From Bolinopsis microptera (taxonomy: Eukaryota; Ctenophora; Tentaculata; Lobata; Bolinopsidae), in contig NC_087077.1 in assembly GCF_026151205.1 (NCBI RefSeq), positions 4,214,001-4,278,000 of the forward strand: 64,000 bases of DNA, given 5' to 3'. Under the pieces are notes generated by a model. The model worked only from the letters and a program-made list of their open reading frames with translations. It had not been told where the DNA came from and did not search any database. This document shows, one piece after another, positions 21,860-54,705 of this stretch; within the stretch, counting starts at the first letter, position 1, and each line of letters starts with the position of its first letter. Both the position numbers and the translations under genes were made by a program.

Positions 21860-23481
21860 GGTTCTTTTGCGATAGTCAAAACGCGACAACTAGCGCTGGA
21901 TGGCGACAACTAGCGTTATCCAGCGCTAGTTGTCGCCATCCAGCGCTAGTTGTCGCTATCCAGCGCTGGATAACGCTGGCCAGCGCAAAATATATATGTT
22001 CGATAATTGTCGCTATCCAGCGCTAGTTGTCGCCATCCAGCGCTAGTTGTCGCCATCCAGCGCTAGTTGTCGCTATCCAGCGCTAGTTGTCGCTGGCTAT
22101 GCGACACTGTCGCACGCGATAGTTTGCGATGGCCAGCGCAACTGGCCATCGCAGAAAACAGTTCGATAACTAGCGCTGGATAGCGACAACTAGCGCTGGA
22201 TAGCGACAACTAGCGCTGGCCAGCGCTAAGCGATAGCCAGCGCTGGCCAGCGCTGGCCATCGATATCCAGCGCAAAATTTTTGCGCTATTACTCGTCAGC
22301 TAGCGCTAACCAGCGCTGGCCAGCGCTAGCCAGCGCTAACCAGCGCTAACCAGCGCTAACCAGCGCTAACCAGCGCTAGCCAGCGCTAACCAGCGCTAGC
22401 CAGCGCTAGCTGTCAGCTGACGAGTAATATCGCAACTATTCTGCGCTGGCCAGCGCTGGCTGACGAGTAATACTAATATCGAGCGTGCTAAATCACTCTA
22501 CAGTCGATCTTCGAGATTGTTCTAAAAGGGCCCCCGATGGTTGTGTCCAACTTCAATCGATGTATTTTCGGACGCTAATTCCGAATCAACCCCCATGGGC
22601 CCATGACATAGGGTTAAAATGCTCTCCTGACGAGATATTGGCGAAAAACTGTACATGTATCGATCACGTGATATGACCGTATAAGGAAGTTAGTCTAATT
22701 TCTCGTTATTGTTAGGGTTTCAGCATATGTTTTTGTTAAGGATTGGGTTAGGGTTAGGGTTGGGATCAGATTAGACTTAGAGGGTTGGGGTTTCGAAAAG
22801 TCGTTCAGAACCAGCTAGAGTCAGAGAATGGATTAAAAAAGGCACGTGACAGTCAAGTGTAAAGTGATTAATCATCATCCGAGTAATATCGCAAGTATAT
22901 GATTTTGATACATTGCGCTGGCTAGCGCTGGTTACCGCTGGCTAGCGCTGGATAGCGACAACTAGCGCTGGCTAGCGCTGGCCAGCGCTGGCTAGCGCTG
23001 GATAGCGACAACTAGCGCTGGCTAGCGCTGGCCAGCGCTAGCTGACGAGTAATAGCGCAAAAATTTTGCGCTGGATATCGATGGCCAGCGCTGGCCAGCG
23101 CTGGCTATCGCTTAGCGCTGGCCAGCGCTAGTTGTCGCTATCCAGCGCTAGTTGTCGCTATCCAGCGCTAGTTATCGAACTGTTTTCTGCGATGGCCAGT
23201 TGCGCTGGCCATCGCAAACTATCGCGTGCGACAGTGTCGCATAGCCAGCGACAACTAGCGCTGGATAGCGACAACTAGCGCTGGATGGCGACAACTAGCG
23301 CTGGATGGCGACAACTAGCGCTGGATAGCGACAATTATCGAACATATATATTTTGCGCTGGCCAGCGTTATCCAGCGCTGGATAGCGACAACTAGCGCTG
23401 GATGGCGACAACTAGCGCTGGATAGCGCTAGTTGTCGCCATCCAGCGCTAGTTGTCGCGTTTTGACTATCGCAAAAGAACC
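21860..23481. mobile_element. Foldback element made of GCGCTGG/TAGCGACAACTA repeats
   Basis: 1622 bp. Terminal inverted repeat GGTTCTTTTGCGATAGTC, with perfect 8-bp target duplication AAGTTTCC at 21852-21859 and 23482-23489. Each arm (about 21860-22480 and 22890-23481) is an array of short, themselves palindromic units such as CAGCGCTAGTTGTCGC and CAGCGCTGGC, and the two arms are near mirror images. The central ~400 bp (22480-22880) is unlike the arms and non-coding. No transposase; superfamily unknown. Confidence 0.88.
22743..22765 (+). repeat. Short TTAGGG-like stretch
   Basis: GGGTTAGGGTTAGGGTTGGG inside the centre of the foldback element. Matches the animal telomere repeat for two to three units only. 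Confidence 0.6.
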
Positions 23482-37413: not shown

Positions 37414-37934
37414 CACGTGACAACGGGGGACTCTGTCACGTGACAACGGGGGACTCTGTCACGTGACAACGGGGGACTCTGTCACGTGACAACGGGGGTC
37501 TCTGTCACGTGACAACGGGGGACTCTGTCACGTGACAACGGGGGACTCTGTCACGTGACAACGGGGGACTCTGTCACGTGACAACGGGGGACTCTGTCAC
37601 GTGACAACGGGGGACTCTGTCACGTGACAACGGGGGACTCTGTCACGTGACAACGGGGGACTCTGTCACGTGACAACGGGGGACTCTGTCACGTGACAAC
37701 GGGGGACTCTGTCACGTGACAACGGGGGACTCTGTCACGTGACAACGGGGGACTCTGTCACGTGACAACGGGGGACTCTGTCACGTGACAACGGGGGACT
37801 CTGTCACGTGACAACGGGGGACTCTGTCACGTGACAACGGGGGACTCTGTCACGTGACAACGGGGGACTCTGTCACGTGACAACAGGGGACTCTGGCACG
37901 TGACAACGGGGGACTCTGTCACGTGACAACGGGG
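37414..37934. repeat. 23-bp satellite with CACGTG in every unit
   Basis: About 22 head-to-tail copies of a 23-base unit: CACGTGACAACGGGGGACT then CTGT. Nearly all copies are identical, with single changes at a few (GGTCT, AACAGGGG, GGCACGTG), so the array is young or kept uniform. Confidence 0.93.
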
Positions 37935-38017: not shown

Positions 38018-38213
38018 TTGGTCGCATCTACGGAGGGACGTTGCATAGACGTTGCATAGACGTTGCATAGACTGACCGTGCAGGGAGTGTGCATAGAGTG
38101 TTCATTGTGCAGGGACGTTGCATAGACGTTGCATAGACGGTTCTTTTGTTGTTGCACGGACGTTGCATAGACGTTGCATAGACTGTCCGGAGCTAAACGA
38201 CCAACTTCCCCTG
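38018..38213. mobile_element. Partial foldback copy (right arm only)
   Basis: The same sequence as the right end of the neighbouring palindrome, 39062-39243: GACGTTGCATAGACGTTGC arrays, GTTCTTTTGTTGTTGCACGG, and GTCCGGAGCTAAACGACCAA. It abuts the full copy in head-to-head fashion, making an extra palindrome centred near 38211. Confidence 0.8.
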
Positions 38214-39250
38214 TTGGGCAACTTGGTCGTTTAGCTCCGGACAGTCTATGCAACGTCTATGCAACGTCCATGCAACAACAAAAGAACCGTCTATGCAACG
38301 TCTATGCAACGTCCCTGCACAATGAACACTCTATGCACACTCCCTGCACGGTCAGTCTATGCAACGTCTATGCAACGTCTATGCAACGTCTATGCAACGT
38401 CCCTGCACAGTACCATATGAACACCGGCTACTAGCCGGCTACTAGCCGGCTACTAGCCGGCTAGTAGCCACTTTTGTAATAACAGCTCCTCAACTTCACA
38501 TTACCAACCGGCTACTAACCGGCACTTGAAAAGTGGTCACTAGCCGGCTACTAACCGGCTACTAGCCGGCTAGTGACCACAAAGTGGCTACTAACCGGCT
38601 ACTAAGCGGTCACTAGCCGGCTATTAGCCGAGCTCTAAAGCAGACCTACTAGTAGCCGGTTCCAAACCGGCTACTAGCCGGCACTAATAGGTCTGCTTTA
38701 GAGCCGGCTAGTGACCGGTTAGTAGCCGGTTAGTAGCCACTTGGTGGTTACTAGCCGGTTAGTAGCCGGTTAGTAGCCGGCTAGTGACCGCTTTTCAAGT
38801 GCCGGCTAGTAGCCGGTTTAGAACCGGCTACTAATAGGTCTGCTTTAGAGCTCGGCTAATAGCCGGCTAGTGACCGCTTAGTAGCCGGTTAGTAGCCACT
38901 TTGTGGTCACTAGCCGGCTAGTAGCCGGTTAGTAGCCGGCTAGTGACCACTTTTCAAGTGCCGGTTAGTAGCCGGTTGTTAATGTGAAGTTGAGGAGCTG
39001 TTATTACAAAAGTGGCTACTAGCCGGCTAGTAGCCGGCTAGTAGCCGGTGTTCATATGGTACTGTGCAGGGACGTTGCATAGACGTTGCATAGACGTTGC
39101 ATAGACTGACCGTGCAGGGAGTGTGCATAGAGTGTTCATTGTGCAGGGACGTTGCATAGACGTTGCATAGACGGTTCTTTTGTTGTTGCACGGACGTTGC
39201 ATAGACGTTGCATAGACTGTCCGGAGCTAAACGACCAACTTCCCCGCTGT
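38214..39250. mobile_element. 1-kb near-perfect palindrome (foldback element) of GACGTTGCATA and TAGCCGGC repeats
   Basis: Left arm from TTGGTCGTTTAGCTCCGGAC, right arm ending GTCCGGAGCTAAACGACCAA. Outer arms carry CTATGCAACGT arrays; inner arms carry CTACTAGCCGGCTAGTAGCC-type units, each palindromic itself; then AACAGCTCCTCAACTTCACA mirrored at 38985. The flanks share CTGTT (38208-38212 region and 39245-39249), a possible 5-bp target duplication, not certain. No coding frame. Confidence 0.85.
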
Positions 39251-41649: not shown

Positions 41650-42495
41650 CATTAAATGTGTGATGACGTAACACTCGTGTTTGATGACGTAACACTTAAT
41701 GTGTGATGACGTAACACTTAATGTGTGATGACGTAACACTTAATGTGTGATGACGTAACACTTAATGTTTGATGACGTAACACTTAATGTGTGATGACGT
41801 AACACTTAATGTGTGATGACGTAACACTTAATGTGTGATGACGTAACACTTAATGTGTGATGACGTAACACTTAATGTGTGATGACGTAACACTTAATGT
41901 GTGATGACGTAACACTTAATGTGTGATGACGTAACACTTAATGTGTGATGACGTAACACTTAATGTGTGATGACGTAACACTTAATGTGTGATGACGTAA
42001 CACTCGTGTTTGGTGACGTAACACTTAATGTGTGATGACGTAACACTCGTGTTTGGTGACGTAACACTTAATGTGTGATGACGTAACACTTAATGTGTGA
42101 TGACGTAACACTCGTGTTTGATGACGTAACACTTAATGTGTGATGACGTAACACTTAATGTGTGATGACGTAACACTTAATGTGTGATGACGTAACACTT
42201 AATGTGTGATGACGTAACACTTAATGTGTGATGACGTAACACTTAATGTGTGATGACGTAACACTTAATGTGTGATGACGTAACACTTAATGTGTGATGA
42301 CGTAACACTTAATGTGTGATGACGTAACACTTAATGTGTGATGACGTAACACTTAATGTGTGATGACGTAACACTCGTGTTTGGTGACGTAACACTTAAT
42401 GTGTGATGACGTAACACTTAATGTGTGATGACGTAACACTTAATGTGTGATGACGTAACACTTAATGTGTGATGACGTAACACTCGTGTTTGATT
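41650..42495. repeat. 22-bp satellite with TGACGTAA in every unit
   Basis: About 38 copies of the 22-base unit GATGACGTAACACTTAATGT plus GT, with interspersed variants (CGTGTTTG). Each unit holds TGACGTAA, a CREB/ATF-like half palindrome. The array ends in TTATGACGTCAAGC. Confidence 0.93.
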
Positions 42496-47630: not shown

Positions 47631-47887
47631 AGCGCCAAGTATATGGAACCAATCGCATCCACAGCCTTCCGAATGTATGTACTGACTTCAGAAGCTCATA
47701 ATGATCAGGGTAGCATGAAAAGTGTATTTACATGTAATGAACAAGAGTAGTTTCCAGAAAAATTTTCGGTTCGAGTAATTCTCGATAGAACCTCTGATGA
47801 CAGAGCTAAAACTTGACCACTAGACATAAATTTGACCACTTATAAAGATGAGGAGCTGACTTAAGAAACCAAAATTTACCTAAAATA

Positions 47888-47935
47888 GGGTACCGAACGG
47901 ACAAAAACGGACAAAAACGGACAAAAATTGTAACT
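47888..47935. repeat. GGGTACCGAACGGACAAA border repeat, left copy
   Basis: GGGTACCGAACGGACAAAAA followed by two more ACGGACAAAA units. The same motif recurs at 53129 and 53681, next to inverted TTTTTGTCCGTTTTTGTCCG segments, on the other side of the purine satellite. Confidence 0.8.
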
Positions 47936-48285
47936 TTTGATTTAAATTTCCTTCACAATTTGTAACAGGCTATCTGCAGAAATGGGTAGCCCGGTTAATG
48001 ACCATGATCCTTTCTCAAACTTTTAATCCTCAATTAGGCACAAAGAATAGTCTACACATTTTTTAATAACAGAAAAAGCTAAAAAGGGATGAAAATCAAT
48101 TCATTTATGAAAAATATCATGTAACAACTTTTCCATATTACTGGAGACTCAGAGAGTAAAACTTTGTTAAACACAAAGATTCTTGAGCACATTTTGAGTC
48201 AGACTCAAATGCGTTTAAAAACATTTTAGTATATAACAATAAATTATGTAAACAATAATACCAACAATAATTATAAATTGAACAA

Positions 48286-49951
48286 ATTATTGAGAGATGA
48301 AAGAGAGGAAGAGCCAAGAGGAGGAGGGGGACTGAGGAGGGGACTGAGGAGGGAGACTGAGGATGGGGACTGAGGAGGGGACTGAGGAGGAAGAGGAGGG
48401 GGCTGAGGAGGAGTAAGACTGAGGAGGAGAACGGAGGAGGAGAACAGAGAAGGAGGAATGAATAGGAGGAGGAGGAGAAGAAGGACTCAAGAGGAGGAGG
48501 TTTGAGGAGGAGAAGGAGGTCAGATGAGGAGGAGGAGGATAAGGAGGAGGACTGGGGAGGACTAAGGAGGAGGAGGAGGAGGACTGAGGAGAACTGAGGA
48601 GAACTGAGGAGAAGGAAGAGGAAGACTGAAGAGGACTGATATGAGGAGGAGGAGGACTGAGGAGAAGGGGGAGGAAGAGGAGAAGGAGGTCAGATGAGGA
48701 GGAGGAGGATGAGGAGGAGGACTGGGGGAGGACTGAGGAGGAGGAGGAGGAGGACTGAGGAGAACTGAGGAGAACTGAGGAGAAGGAAGAGGAAGACTGA
48801 AGAGGACTGATATGAGGAGGAGGAGGACTGAGGAGAAGGGGGAGGAAGAGGAGGAGGAGGAGAAGGACTGAGAAGGAGGAGGACTGAGGAGAAGGAGGAG
48901 GAGGAGGAGGAGTAAGAGGAGGTTGGCAGGGGGAGGACTGAGGAGGAGGAAGAGGAGGAGGAGGAGTAAGAGGAGGTTGACTGGGGGGAGGACTGAGGAG
49001 GAGGAAGAGGGGAAGGACTGAGAAGGAGAAGGAGGAGGACCCAGGAGGAGGACCCAGGAGGAGGAGGACCCAGGAGGAGGACCCAGGAGGAGAACCCTGG
49101 AAAAGGCCCCACGAGGAAGAGGAGGAGGACTGAGGAGGAGGACTGAGGAGAACTGAGAAGGAGGACGAGGACTGAGGAGTAGTAGGAGGAAGAGGACTGA
49201 GGAGGATCAGAAGGACCCAGGAGGAGGACCCAGGAGGAGGAGGAGGAGGAGGAGGAGGACTGAGGAGGAGGACTGAGGAGAACTGAGAAGAAGGAGGAGA
49301 ACTGAGAAGAAGGAGGAGAAGGACTGAATAGGAGGAGGAGGAGGGGGACTGGGGGAGGACTGAGGAGGAGGAGGAGGAGGGGGACTGGGCGATGACTGAG
49401 GAGGAGGAGAACTGAGGAGAAGGAGGACTATGAAGAAGGATGAGGTGGAGGACCCAGGAGGAGGAGGACCCAGGAGGAGGAGGACCCAGGAGGAGGACCC
49501 AGGAAAAGGCCCCATGAGGAGTAGGAGGACTGGGGAGGAGGATGACCGATGAGGACTGATGAAGACAAGGAGGAGGAGGAGGGCTGAGGACTGAGGACTG
49601 AGGACTGAGGAGGAGGACTGATGAAGAGAAGGAGGTGTATGAGGAGGATGAAAAGGACTAATGAGAAGGAGGATGAGGAAAAGGAGGACTGAGGAGGAGA
49701 ACTTGTGAAGAGGACTGATGAGGAAGAGGAGGAGGACTGATGAGGATCAGGAGGACCCAGGAGGATGAGGAAGAGGAGGAGGACTGAGGAGGAGGATGAC
49801 TGAGGAGGAGGAGGACTGAGAAGGAGGAGGACTGAGGAGAACTGAAGAGAAGGAGGAGAAGTACTGAATAGGAGGAGGGGGACTGGAGGAGGACTGAGGA
49901 GGACTGAGGAGGAGGAGGACTGATGAGGAGGAGGACTGATGAGGAGGAGGA
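48286..49951. repeat. Polypurine (GGA/GAGGA) satellite, left part
   Basis: About 1.7 kb almost wholly A and G on the plus strand, made of GAGGAGGAGGACTGAGGAG-type units, with CCCAGGAGGAGGA variants and a higher-order block near 48508 repeated near 48681. Frames on the minus strand encode Ser/Pro/Leu runs and are not genes. Confidence 0.92.
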
Positions 49952-50132
49952 TTAAGGGGGCATACACCAAATCTGTCGAGACCAAATGACCTCACAGGCA
50001 GTTCAGTGACCTTCTAGCGCACCGTTTCCACGCCAAAAAAAATTATTTTGAGAATACCCATTTTTGTAATCGAGCATTTCCTGGTTAAGAGTGCAATTTT
50101 CGGAAAAAATTATTTTGTGGTTGAGACGCTAT

Positions 50133-51520
50133 GATTGTAGGACTGAATCCCTACCGGACGGAATCACTACCACCCAAATATCACTACTGGTAGTGATTCA
50201 GTCCGGTAGTGATTCAGTCCTGAAATATACCTCAATCCCTACCAGTTGATCTTAGTTCACTAGTCTAATATCATGACGTGATCTGAGCCGGGGCTCTCAT
50301 GGAGTGCTTGCTATGGGGCCTGTCAGACATGTGATCCACAGACTTACGTACGCAACGAGGAGCCCTAACGAGAACTGGTTCGGATCAAGTCATCCATAAT
50401 GACCTGCTATACGACAATACAGTGATGTGAACCTTCACATGCTCGGTATCTCAATCAGCTAGCGGGAATAATATATAAACCCGCAACGCCTGTGTTTATC
50501 TTATACCACTATGTCTTCCTCATCCATCGAGTTTATTCCTGGCAGAAAGAAAGGCAGCCGCAACGTCCTCTACGATGGTCACCTCTACCACCTTAACAGA
50601 AAGAGGGAAGACAAGACCTACTGGAAGTGCAACAAGTGCAAGTCCCGCCTGATCCTTGTCCAGGACACCTTCTGTTCTGCTGCCCCTCATGATCACGAAT
50701 CTCAACCAGCAGAAATTGCAGCCCACCTCTCCAAGTCTAAAATGAAGACCCTCGCAGCTACTACTGAGAACTCAACTAAGCAGATTGTTGCAGACTCTGT
50801 CGCTGGACTATCCTTCGAAGCCTCGTCCCGGCTCAACTGTGATCCCAAGTCATTGGCACGACTAGTCAGACGAGCCAGACAGAAAGCCTACTCCCATCCT
50901 GTCAACCCCATCTCCTTAGAAGACCTGGTGATTCCTCTTAACTACCTGACCTCTCCCGGTGGTGACACTATGTTGCTTCTATCTGGAAGTTCTTAGAGTG
51001 CATCAAGAGGGAGCAGGCTTTGACAGACGTGAAGATCACCAACATCCTCACCAGAAAACCCTTCAAGAGAGCAGCAAAGTGGGAGAAGTTTGACCTGGAG
51101 ATGCAACGTATGGTTGATGATTATGATAACTTTGGGGATGTTACCGAGTTTCTGAAAGCTGTTGGATCTAAGATTTTGGGTTAATGCTTTAATGTTTACT
51201 TATTATTGTGTGATTTAAATTACTGTATCAGTATATTATCTATTATTCTTTGACCAAATTTCTGCTTAGTCAATTATCACGAAAAATGTAATAATAATTA
51301 ACAAAAAATAAAATAATTAACTAATGAAATACGAATAATTATGCCTTTATTGCAAAGTTCAGTAGGGATCACATCAAAGTGGTTAGGTCTAGATATTAGC
51401 GGTAGTGATTCAGTCCGGTAGTGATTCAGTCCTGAAATATACCTCAATCCCTACCAATAGTGATTGGTAGTGATTCAGTCCGTTAGGGATTCAGTCATGT
51501 AGTGATTCGGTCCGTTCACC
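50133..51520 (+). mobile_element. Mutator-like (MULE) deletion derivative inside the foldback element
   Basis: 1388 bp flanked by a perfect 9-bp target duplication AGACGCTAT (50124-50132 and 51521-51529), the MULE size. The ends consist of repeated GGACTGAATCCCTAC / GGTAGTGATTCAGTCC units, and the block TCCTGAAATATACCTCAATC is repeated near both ends (about 50219 and 51431). It carries a FLYWCH protein remnant. Confidence 0.9.
50511..51184 (+). pseudogene. FLYWCH-type MULE protein, transposase core deleted
   Basis: From ATG at 50511: MSSSSIEFIPGRKKGSRNVL then a FLYWCH zinc-finger region (about residues 14-62) with YHLNRKREDKTYWKCNKCKS and final His-x-His (PHDHES), the C2H2-type ligands. The frame continues to a stop at 50996. 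In the next frame, from about 50983, IWKFLECIKREQALTDVKI to AVGSKILG and a stop at 51184 matches the C-terminal end of such MULE proteins. So the several-hundred-residue DDE transposase between LTSPGGDTMLLLS and IWKFLE is gone, with a frame change at the junction. The FLYWCH part alone could still bind DNA if expressed. Confidence 0.8.
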
Positions 51521-52566
51521 AGACGCTATAAGTTAATCATTTCTTGCGGTATCGGGTTGAAATTTTGCTCGCCGTTTATTCACATCTATGTCAAGGTGTG
51601 TGTAAAATCTTGATATCGTATCTAAAAAGGCTGGTGTGTTATGAATTTTTAAAGTCAAAAAGCTAAAATTTTCCTTTTCAGGCTTATTTTAACAAAAAGT
51701 CAGTCAGGGAAGATCAGATTATTTGATGCTTGACATCAAATTGTTCTCTGAATTCTGGCGCAGTTTTTGATGCCCTCAAAAATGTTTTTACTCATTCACC
51801 TTCTGATCTATTGGACCTCAAAGCCAAACAACAAATTTAGGCACATTTTTCGTTTTTAATATTTACTGATTTTTCTAAAATTTTGATAGGAATGTGCTAG
51901 TGACTTTTTGAAGAGTGCAAAATAACCGCAACTAGCACATTTATATATGAGTTATGAACAACAAAACACCCTAAAATGCTTCCCTTTTAAGTTATGGGAG
52001 AAAATGTGATTTTTTGGCTTTGCAGATAAAAAATCAGTAAATATTAAAAACGAAAAATGTGCCTAAATTTGTTGTTTGGCTTTGAGGTCCAATAGATCAG
52101 AAGGTGAATGAGTAAAAACATTTTTGAGGGCATCAAAAACTGCGCCAGAATTCAGAGAACAATTTGATGTCAAGCATCAAATAATCCGATCTTCCCTGAC
52201 TGACTTTTTGTTAAAATAAGCCTGAAAAGGACAATTTTAGCTTTTTGACTTTAAAAATTCATAACACACCAGCCTTTTTAGATACGATATCAAGATTTTA
52301 CACACACCTTGACATAGATGTGAATAAACGGCGAGCAAAATTTCAACCCGATACCGCAAGAAATGATTAACTTATAGCGTCTCAACCACAAAATAATTTT
52401 TTCCGAAAATTGCACTCTTAACCAGGAAATGCTCGATTACAAAAATGGGTATTCTCAAAATAATTTTTTTTGGCGTGGAAACGGTGCGCTAGAAGGTCAC
52501 TGAACTGCCTATGAGGTCATTTGGTCTGGACGGCACAAACCACTGTTTTGGTGTATGCCCCCTTAA

Positions 52567-53590
52567 GGAGAAGGAGGAGGAGAAGGACTGAGGAGGAAGA
52601 GGAGGAGGATGAAGAGGATTGAGGAGGAGGACTGAGGAGGACTGAGGAGGATGGCTGAGGAGGATGACTGAGGAGGATGACTGAGGAGGAGGTTGAGAAG
52701 GACTGAGGAGGAGAAGGAGAAGGAGGAGGACCCAGGAGGAGGAGGACCCAGGAGGAGGAGGACTAAGGAGGAGGACCCAGTAGGAGGAGGAGGAGGAGGA
52801 ATGAAGAGAAGGATGACCTAGGAGGACTGAGGAGGAAGATGAGAAGGACTGAGGAGGAGAAGAAGAAGGAGGAGGACCCAGGAGGAGGAGGACGCAGGAG
52901 GAGGACCCAGTAGGAGGAGGAGGAGGAGGAATGAGGAGAAGGATGACCTAGGAGGAAGAGGAGGATTGAGGAGGAGGAGGAAGAGGAAGAGGAGGAAGAG
53001 GAGGAGGAAGAGAAGGAGGAGGAAGAGGAAGAGGAGGAGGAGGAGGAGGGAGCATCTAATTGTTATTTTCATTTTTGTCATTTTTTGTCCGTTTTTGTCC
53101 GCTCAATTTTTGTCTGTTTTGAAAATATAGGGTACCGAACGGACAAAGGAGGAGGACTGAGGAGAACTGAGCAGAAGTACTGAATAGGAGGAGGAAGGGG
53201 ACCTGGGGGAGGAATGAGGAGGAGGAGCCAGGAGGACTAAGGAGAAGAATGAGGAGGAGGACTGAGGAGGAGGAGGAGGAGGACTGAGGAGGAGGAGGAG
53301 GACTGAGGAGGAGGATAAAGAGGAGGACTGAGGAGGAGGACTGAGGAGGATGGCTGAGGAGGATGACTGAGGAGGAGGACTGAGGAGGGGAGGAGGAGGA
53401 GGACTGAGGAGGAGGAGGATGAGAAGGACTGAGGAGGAGAAGGAGGAGGACCCAGGAGGAGGAGGACCCAGGAGGAGGACTCAGTAGGAGGAGGAGGAGG
53501 AGGAGGAATGAAGAGAAGGAGGACCTAGGAGGAGGAGGACTGAGGAGGAGGAGGAAGAGGAAGAGGAGGAGGAGGAAGAGGAGGAGGAGG
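52567..53590. repeat. Polypurine satellite, right part
   Basis: Continues the GAGGAGGA array after the insertion, up to about 53052 and again 53149-53592. Each part ends in a segment GTCATTTTTTGTCCGTTTTT, GTCCGCT, TTTTGAAAATATAGGGTACC, GAACGGACAAA (53075-53148 and 53617-53700). Confidence 0.9.
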
Positions 53591-53888
53591 AAGCATCTAA
53601 ATGTTATTTCCATTTGTGTCATTTTTTGTAATTTTTTGTCCGTTTTTGTCCGCTCTATTTTTGTCCGTTTTGAAAATATAGGGTACCGAACGGACAAAAA
53701 CGGATTAACCTAAGTGGAGCAGTAATACTTAAAAAAACAGCCTTATCAACCACCAGGGCTACATTATGGAGATAAGATAATTATATTTTCACCGTAATAT
53801 ACTATTAAGGCCAACGTATGGGTACTGACTTTTGGCCCACCCTGTATATTAAAATATGATGAAATTTAGAAAAACTCGTTAAAATCCG

Positions 53889-54365
53889 ATGGTTTACCAA
53901 AGATTCTCCAATTATTACCAATAAGATAGGGCTAACTTGAGGCTACTTCTGATTAAAGTTCTGATTAATCAACGAAAAATCAAATCAAAAGTTCCAACTT
54001 TTGAGCACAACAATGCCGGGCGTTACAATTCGTTCTATGCCAGATGATTCTCTGATGGTTTATCAAGGATTCTCCAATTATTACCAATAAGATAGGACTA
54101 ACTTGAGGCTACTTCTAATTAAAGCTCTGATTAATCAACGAAAAATCAGATCAAAAGTTCCAACTTTTGAGCACAACAATGCCGGGCGTTACAATTCGTT
54201 CTATGCCAGATGATTCTCTGATGGTTTATCAAGGACTCTCCAATTATTACCAATAAGATAGGACTAACTTGAGGCTACTTCTAATTAAAGCTCTGATTAA
54301 TCAACGAAAAATCAGATCAAAAGTTCCCACTTTTGAGCACAGCAATGCCGAGCGTTATAATTCGT
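53889..54365. repeat. ~176-bp tandem repeat, 2.8 copies
   Basis: Units start near 53889, 54052 and 54226 and share GATGGTTTATCAAGGATTCT, ACTTGAGGCTACTTCTAATT and CAATGCCGGGCGTTACAATT. A few point differences only. No coding frame; lies ~340 bp upstream of the PLAT-like gene. Confidence 0.9.
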
Positions 54366-54705
54366 TCGTATATAAATATTATATACGATGATAGTGATTC
54401 AGATTTCACTACGTTTATTTTGGTCCATTTCATTTTTAGATACATAAAATTTTTTGATGCCATGATCTGAGTTGGATAATATGTATACTCCTTGATAGCT
54501 TGACTTAGTCCTAGTCTATAATTTGGTGCAGTAAATCGATAATAGTCATTTTATTTAGAATCATGTTGTCGTTTGGATCAACATTATCTTTTCCATGAAC
54601 GCGGATTAAATTTTGAATCGTTTTAACAAGACTCGCACTTTGTAGCTCAAATTAATACTTTTAACGAAAATAATAAGTACTGAACACTTTCTTAGCCTTT
54701 AAACG

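Follow-up and report, generated by a model that had tools for sequence, protein, structure and literature searches.

How did a purine-rich array come to hold two further repeats, one inside the other, and in which order did the three arrive? The question arises from a 64-kb stretch of DNA (C6:4214001-4278000, hereafter the window), in which a three-level nest of purine array, TTAA foldback and MULE derivative had been predicted. We found that the nest is borne out and that all of its inner borders are exact to a single base. The genome searched comprises 264.65 Mb in 232 contigs, and matches fell on the chromosome-sized contigs C1-C13, twelve of which measure 16-26 Mb. The searches gave a family for every layer.

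The original prediction held that a GAGGA satellite came first. Its place as the oldest layer stands, but it is no plain satellite: judged from sequence comparison, it forms the central part of a dispersed element that runs from 47882 to ~53704 and is bounded by conserved modules on both sides. On the plus strand, this element begins with a 5′ module (47882-48313) that recurs genome-wide and from which the tip with GGGGATCATGTT is missing. The purine array lies to the left of the foldback at 48286-49951 (85% purine, with 3-, 13- and 16-bp periodicities) and to its right at 52567-53058 (87% purine), followed by an internal copy of the 3′ module (53059-53147), a second array (53148-53591, 87% purine) and the terminal 3′ module (53592-53704), all on the plus strand. 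The terminal module, with a hairpin z of -5.2, is common to locus L051 up to 53700 and lacks the tip AACATGATCCC, so that neither tip is present in the window copy. Just right of the nest, at 53888-54367, lies a 166-bp unit repeated 2.9 times (96%), and the window also contains two very uniform minisatellites at 37414-37934 (23 bp x 22.7, 98%) and 41655-42484 (22 bp x 38, 94%).

The searches with the two modules gave 654 first-look candidates for the 5′ module and 917 for the 3′ module, with 40 scored in each case. Several genome copies place the left border of the 5′ module at 47882, and the module runs into a purine array in the five copies read. Ten 3′-module loci were fetched, and inspection or the purine profile shows an array immediately beside the module in all but L038, for which the profile was taken on the other strand. 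Full 5′ tips are found in L051-L054 and L062-L067, and L051 holds both modules, 3.8 kb apart, with the tips GGGGTCATGTTATTTT... and ...AACATGATCCCC. In other copies, the tips form terminal inverted repeats, TCATGTT(AT)TTTTTTGTCCG and CGGACAAAAAACATGA. Exact 3′ tips occur 345 times in the genome and exact 5′ tips 67 times, with a control count of 0 for both; the 5′ end may vary or be lost, or other modules may take its place, any of which could account for this inequality. Other observations speak against a simple history: the arrays of L047-L049 have different left neighbours, and a right-hand neighbour is common to L034, L039 and L040, and likewise to L042 and L053. Many copies also carry long, variable G/C homopolymer runs at their tips, for example at L051:4687-4770. 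The left border gains from a near-copy of 47675-47881 at C6:6446447, which is 99% identical and ends at the 47881/47882 border; as an empty site this locus was rejected, since no match to the right flank in the window is found on its other side, and thus it supports the border alone. Helitron and HINE-like elements have a 3′ hairpin, a CTRR-type end and no inverted tips, and a Helitron-like identity for the bottom layer was likewise rejected: the hairpin is present, yet the element has inverted repeats for tips and ends in ACATGATCCC.

Since its modules recur genome-wide, the bottom layer is probably mobile too, and we regard the purine-core element as probably transposable. An account at odds with this would have a local satellite grow in place by slippage, with the modules as chance flanking remnants. 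Array lengths do vary, internal duplications are visible (a 171-bp repeat within the array at 48507-48922), the 3′ module occurs twice in the window, and the seven end pairs of the element gave no consistent target duplication, a convincing one (7 bp) being found in a single pair. However, slippage cannot spread units to other chromosomes, and the array adjoins the 3′ module in the fetched loci and joins the 5′ module in the copies read, with exact tips that recur hundreds of times at the 3′ end and dozens at the 5′ end; growth in place is unlikely. A mobile purine-core element is therefore the preferred reading. A more specific form of it, that this is an undescribed mobile family with a homopurine minisatellite body of some kb, of which whole module-array-module units transpose and whose arrays serve as landing sites, has in our judgement an even chance of being right. 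The first step in the history of the locus would then have been the arrival of a putatively mobile, module-ended element with a purine minisatellite core at 47882-53704, which presumably lost its tips.

TTAA is rare in such arrays. None occurs in the three array pieces of the window (1,666, 492 and 444 bp; 2,602 bp in total), and the masked arrays of 13 other loci hold 4 in 27,940 bp, a count in which the overlapping loci L037 and L051 are partly counted twice; one of these four, in L041, lies clearly within an array. TTAA is found at 49952-49955 and again at 52563-52566, on either side of the foldback as predicted. Because TTAA is almost absent from purine arrays, these two copies are not a matter of chance, and they are read as a target duplication.

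The foldback, with the MULE derivative included, occupies 49956-52562. Its left arm is in two parts on the plus strand, an outer one at 49956-50132 and an inner one at 51521-51874, and its right arm, on the minus strand at 52029-52562, is uninterrupted. The inverted arms match at 99% over 354 nt (51521-51874 with 52029-52382) and at 99% over 158 nt (49975-50132 with 52374-52531). At the centre (51875-52028), ~141 bp of one half are absent compared with most fetched copies. A genome search with one arm gave 529 first-look candidates, and each of the 40 scored matched over the whole arm at 98-100%. The terminal pattern has 344 exact matches in the genome (the positions among the matches listed are those of the first 100), and the reversed pattern, as a control, has 0. 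Sixteen loci were fetched, of which 13 have both ends and two a single end, the locus of the window itself being truncated. TTAA stands on either side in all 13 two-ended copies, where the query itself held one TTAA and left the other side free, and all 13 have GG...CC (purine-purine) ends. Eleven of them are 1,350-1,366 bp long with a self-complementarity of 93.7-97.1%; the shorter copies L005 and L014 reach 88.3% and 82.4%. Since the ends differ in the same way in the 13 copies and in the window, their 12-bp difference is a trait of the family and not damage at this locus. The predicted foldback identity is thus upheld by the inverted arms and by family members across the genome, and the family is a ~1,350-bp, near-palindromic one with a TTAA target. 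In the second step, a near-palindromic nonautonomous foldback entered a rare TTAA of the purine core and duplicated it, as the two flanking copies show.

Two other regions of the window have inverted arms. One, at 21860-23481, is foldback-like, with arms of 549 nt that are 97% complementary and 524 nt apart, and consists mostly of 10- and 20-bp tandem repeats. In the other, at 38037-39245, 11-bp tandem repeats form a palindromic cluster, within which several inverted arms are nested (251 nt, 99%; 188 nt, 96%; 175 nt, 98%).

A coding relative of the foldback was found in L068, a 5.5-kb element with the same termini (a single mismatch in one of them), a flanking TTAA at each end and inverted repeats of 696 bp that are 99% alike. 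Its reading frames are in pieces; one of them carries the transposase domain PF20700 (E 2.2e-15), and THAP, a hallmark of Kolobok that is expected in the transposase together with DDE and H2CH motifs, was not found in the four L068 frames scanned. An end of L068 matches the left arm in the window at 95% over 181 bp, and its arm matches the right arm at 84% over 529 bp, an identity that makes a direct link of parent and offspring doubtful. Three further places, on C1, C9 and C11, match parts of the L068 interior at 97-99%, and matches elsewhere reach no more than 93%; the region C1:15638220-15644017, which holds such matches, has both foldback termini and TTAA. A 251-aa frame of L068 (4011-4763) was considered for a DnaQ-like fold and rejected, the Pfam match to PF16473 (3′-5′ exoribonuclease) being below the cut-off at E 0.043; the same frame had no match among PDB sequences. 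The foldback transposase was probably supplied in trans by elements of this kind, with long inverted repeats, PF20700 and the same termini.

Kolobok elements have a TTAA target and purine-purine (RR) termini, according to the passages of PMC6004289 that describe them. The foldback fits in both respects and THAP is undetected in L068, so we call the second layer only Kolobok-like. PF20700 is also matched by THAP proteins of the same genome, namely the long frames of L055, L056 and L058, which carry THAP and PF20700 together. As direct partners of the foldback, the THAP loci were rejected: L055 and L058 have no foldback terminus, and L056 and L059 begin with TTAAAGGTGCACACC. L057, a long THAP frame that was repetitive by eye, was excluded. 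L056 and L059, both with THAP and PF20700, are 99% identical over 3.57 kb, with the similarity starting at TTAAAGGTGCACACC, and on this resemblance would form a separate, recently active family of Kolobok type.

The target of piggyBac is TTAA too, and the genome has 26 matches to PF13843, which could make the foldback a piggyBac derivative and not Kolobok-like. However, the one piggyBac locus compared, L060 (3.5 kb; one of the 26), has no foldback terminus within 3 mismatches, and the coding element that does have foldback termini carries PF20700; we therefore consider a piggyBac origin very unlikely and retain the Kolobok-like assignment.

The third layer is a 1,388-bp deletion derivative of a MULE on the plus strand at 50133-51520. 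It was predicted to sit in one foldback arm with a 9-bp duplication, and the exact 9-mer AGACGCTAT is indeed found at 50124-50132 and at 51521-51529, the latter being the first nine bases of the inner arm. In the whole window this 9-mer occurs twice on the plus strand, as these two copies, and once as the reverse complement at 52374. Once the MULE and one 9-mer are removed, no difference is left between the two foldback arms around the joint. Since the right arm is uninterrupted and has the AGACGCTAT site once, at 52374-52382, it provides an empty site for the MULE within the window.

The identity of the MULE was likewise confirmed, because its relatives carry the MULE transposase domain PF10551 between the same two ends. 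The 1,388-bp element, used as a query, gave 65 first-look candidates, of which 40 were scored, and 16 loci including that of the window were fetched, 14 with both ends and two with one end only. Perfect duplications flank 8 of the 14 two-ended copies, again including the window (9 bp in seven copies, 8 bp in one); the other six have no target duplication, and one of them, L025, has a poor right-end match. In relatives, extra sequence follows the initial 845 bp and precedes the final 539-545 bp, and at six places this sequence contains PF10551, which the window copy lacks through deletion. The relative L018 is 1,834 bp long; the window copy has 456 bp fewer than L018 around the transposase domain and, at the joint, the four filler bases TCTA (50978-50981, plus strand). 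What remains of the transposase frame (50511-50993, plus strand) has a FLYWCH zinc finger (PF04500, E 7.7e-10, 39.2 bits vs a cut-off of 23.6). On these shared ends and domains, the window MULE is assigned to a ~1.83-kb family with FLYWCH and MULE transposase. The plus-strand frames of seven relatives do not exceed 283 aa, and longer open frames occur elsewhere in the family, such as one of 474 aa at C1:13854931. The inverted repeat near the ends of the window MULE is 32 nt long (94%), where >100 bp is typical, though not universal, for MULEs. In the third step, this nonautonomous MULE inserted into the left arm of the foldback, where it duplicated 9 bp, with transposase that FLYWCH/MULE relatives presumably supplied in trans. 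Its internal deletion with filler bases resembles end-joining or interrupted gap repair, either of which may have produced it.

The target duplications had also been expected to date the order of events; they give the rank of the events and not absolute dates. It is the nesting that fixes the order of the three layers, and divergence does not contradict it. Measured against consensus sequences, the foldback arm in the window has 1 difference in 538 sites (16 copies), the MULE 5 in 690 (16 copies) and the 5′ module 14 in 364 (five copies), all in samples of best matches to the window copy, which lean young. Among the 38 other scored 5′ modules, 29 are 84-91% identical (range 76-94%). Taken alone, divergence would make the foldback younger than the MULE; both are very young by this measure, so only nesting separates them. 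That high-copy repeats were wrongly joined by the assembler and the nest is absent in the animal is extremely unlikely, since, high-copy as all layers are (529, 65, 654 and 917 first-look candidates for the foldback arm, the MULE, the 5′ module and the 3′ module) and apt to confuse an assembler, each inner border is a family end with the duplication expected of that family, which a wrong join does not produce.

Taken together, these results make it very probable that the locus arose by a chain of insertions, presumably of the cut-and-paste type, in which a purine-core element was followed by a Kolobok-like foldback and then by a nonautonomous MULE. The nesting is an ordinary transposon process, and its members are new while the superfamilies are already known; in the literature covered, outside which most subscription journals lie, no description of the foldback, MULE or purine-core families was found. 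The locus ranks three repeat families in time without an outgroup and includes its own empty-site control. An abundant near-palindromic 1.35-kb family is now tied to a relative with a transposase domain, and the purine "satellite" arrays of this genome may be transposon cargo, which makes the purine-core element the part most worth following.

Each layer can be set beside known systems, as far as the cited passages describe them. Like the Kolobok T2-MITE of Xenopus (PMC6004289), the foldback has a TTAA target, purine-purine termini and many nonautonomous copies; in contrast to the T2-MITE as presented there, its termini are GGGGGCATACMCC and not AGGRR, its copies are near-complete palindromes, and THAP is undetected in its coding relative. 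The MULE shares with Muta1 of Aedes, in the account of PMC5225508, target duplications of 8 or 9 bp, short subterminal repeats (here 16-bp units), relatives with a MULE transposase domain, and internal-deletion derivatives; its inverted ends are shorter than those of Muta1 (32 nt, 94%, vs >100 bp), and short ends are also reported for two of the 14 Aedes families in that account. Finally, the nest resembles Tetris of Drosophila virilis, as outlined in PMC4079207, in its long inverted arms and in the tie between mobile elements and tandem arrays; unlike in Tetris, the foldback arms here are not themselves tandem repeats, and the array is a separate, older element.
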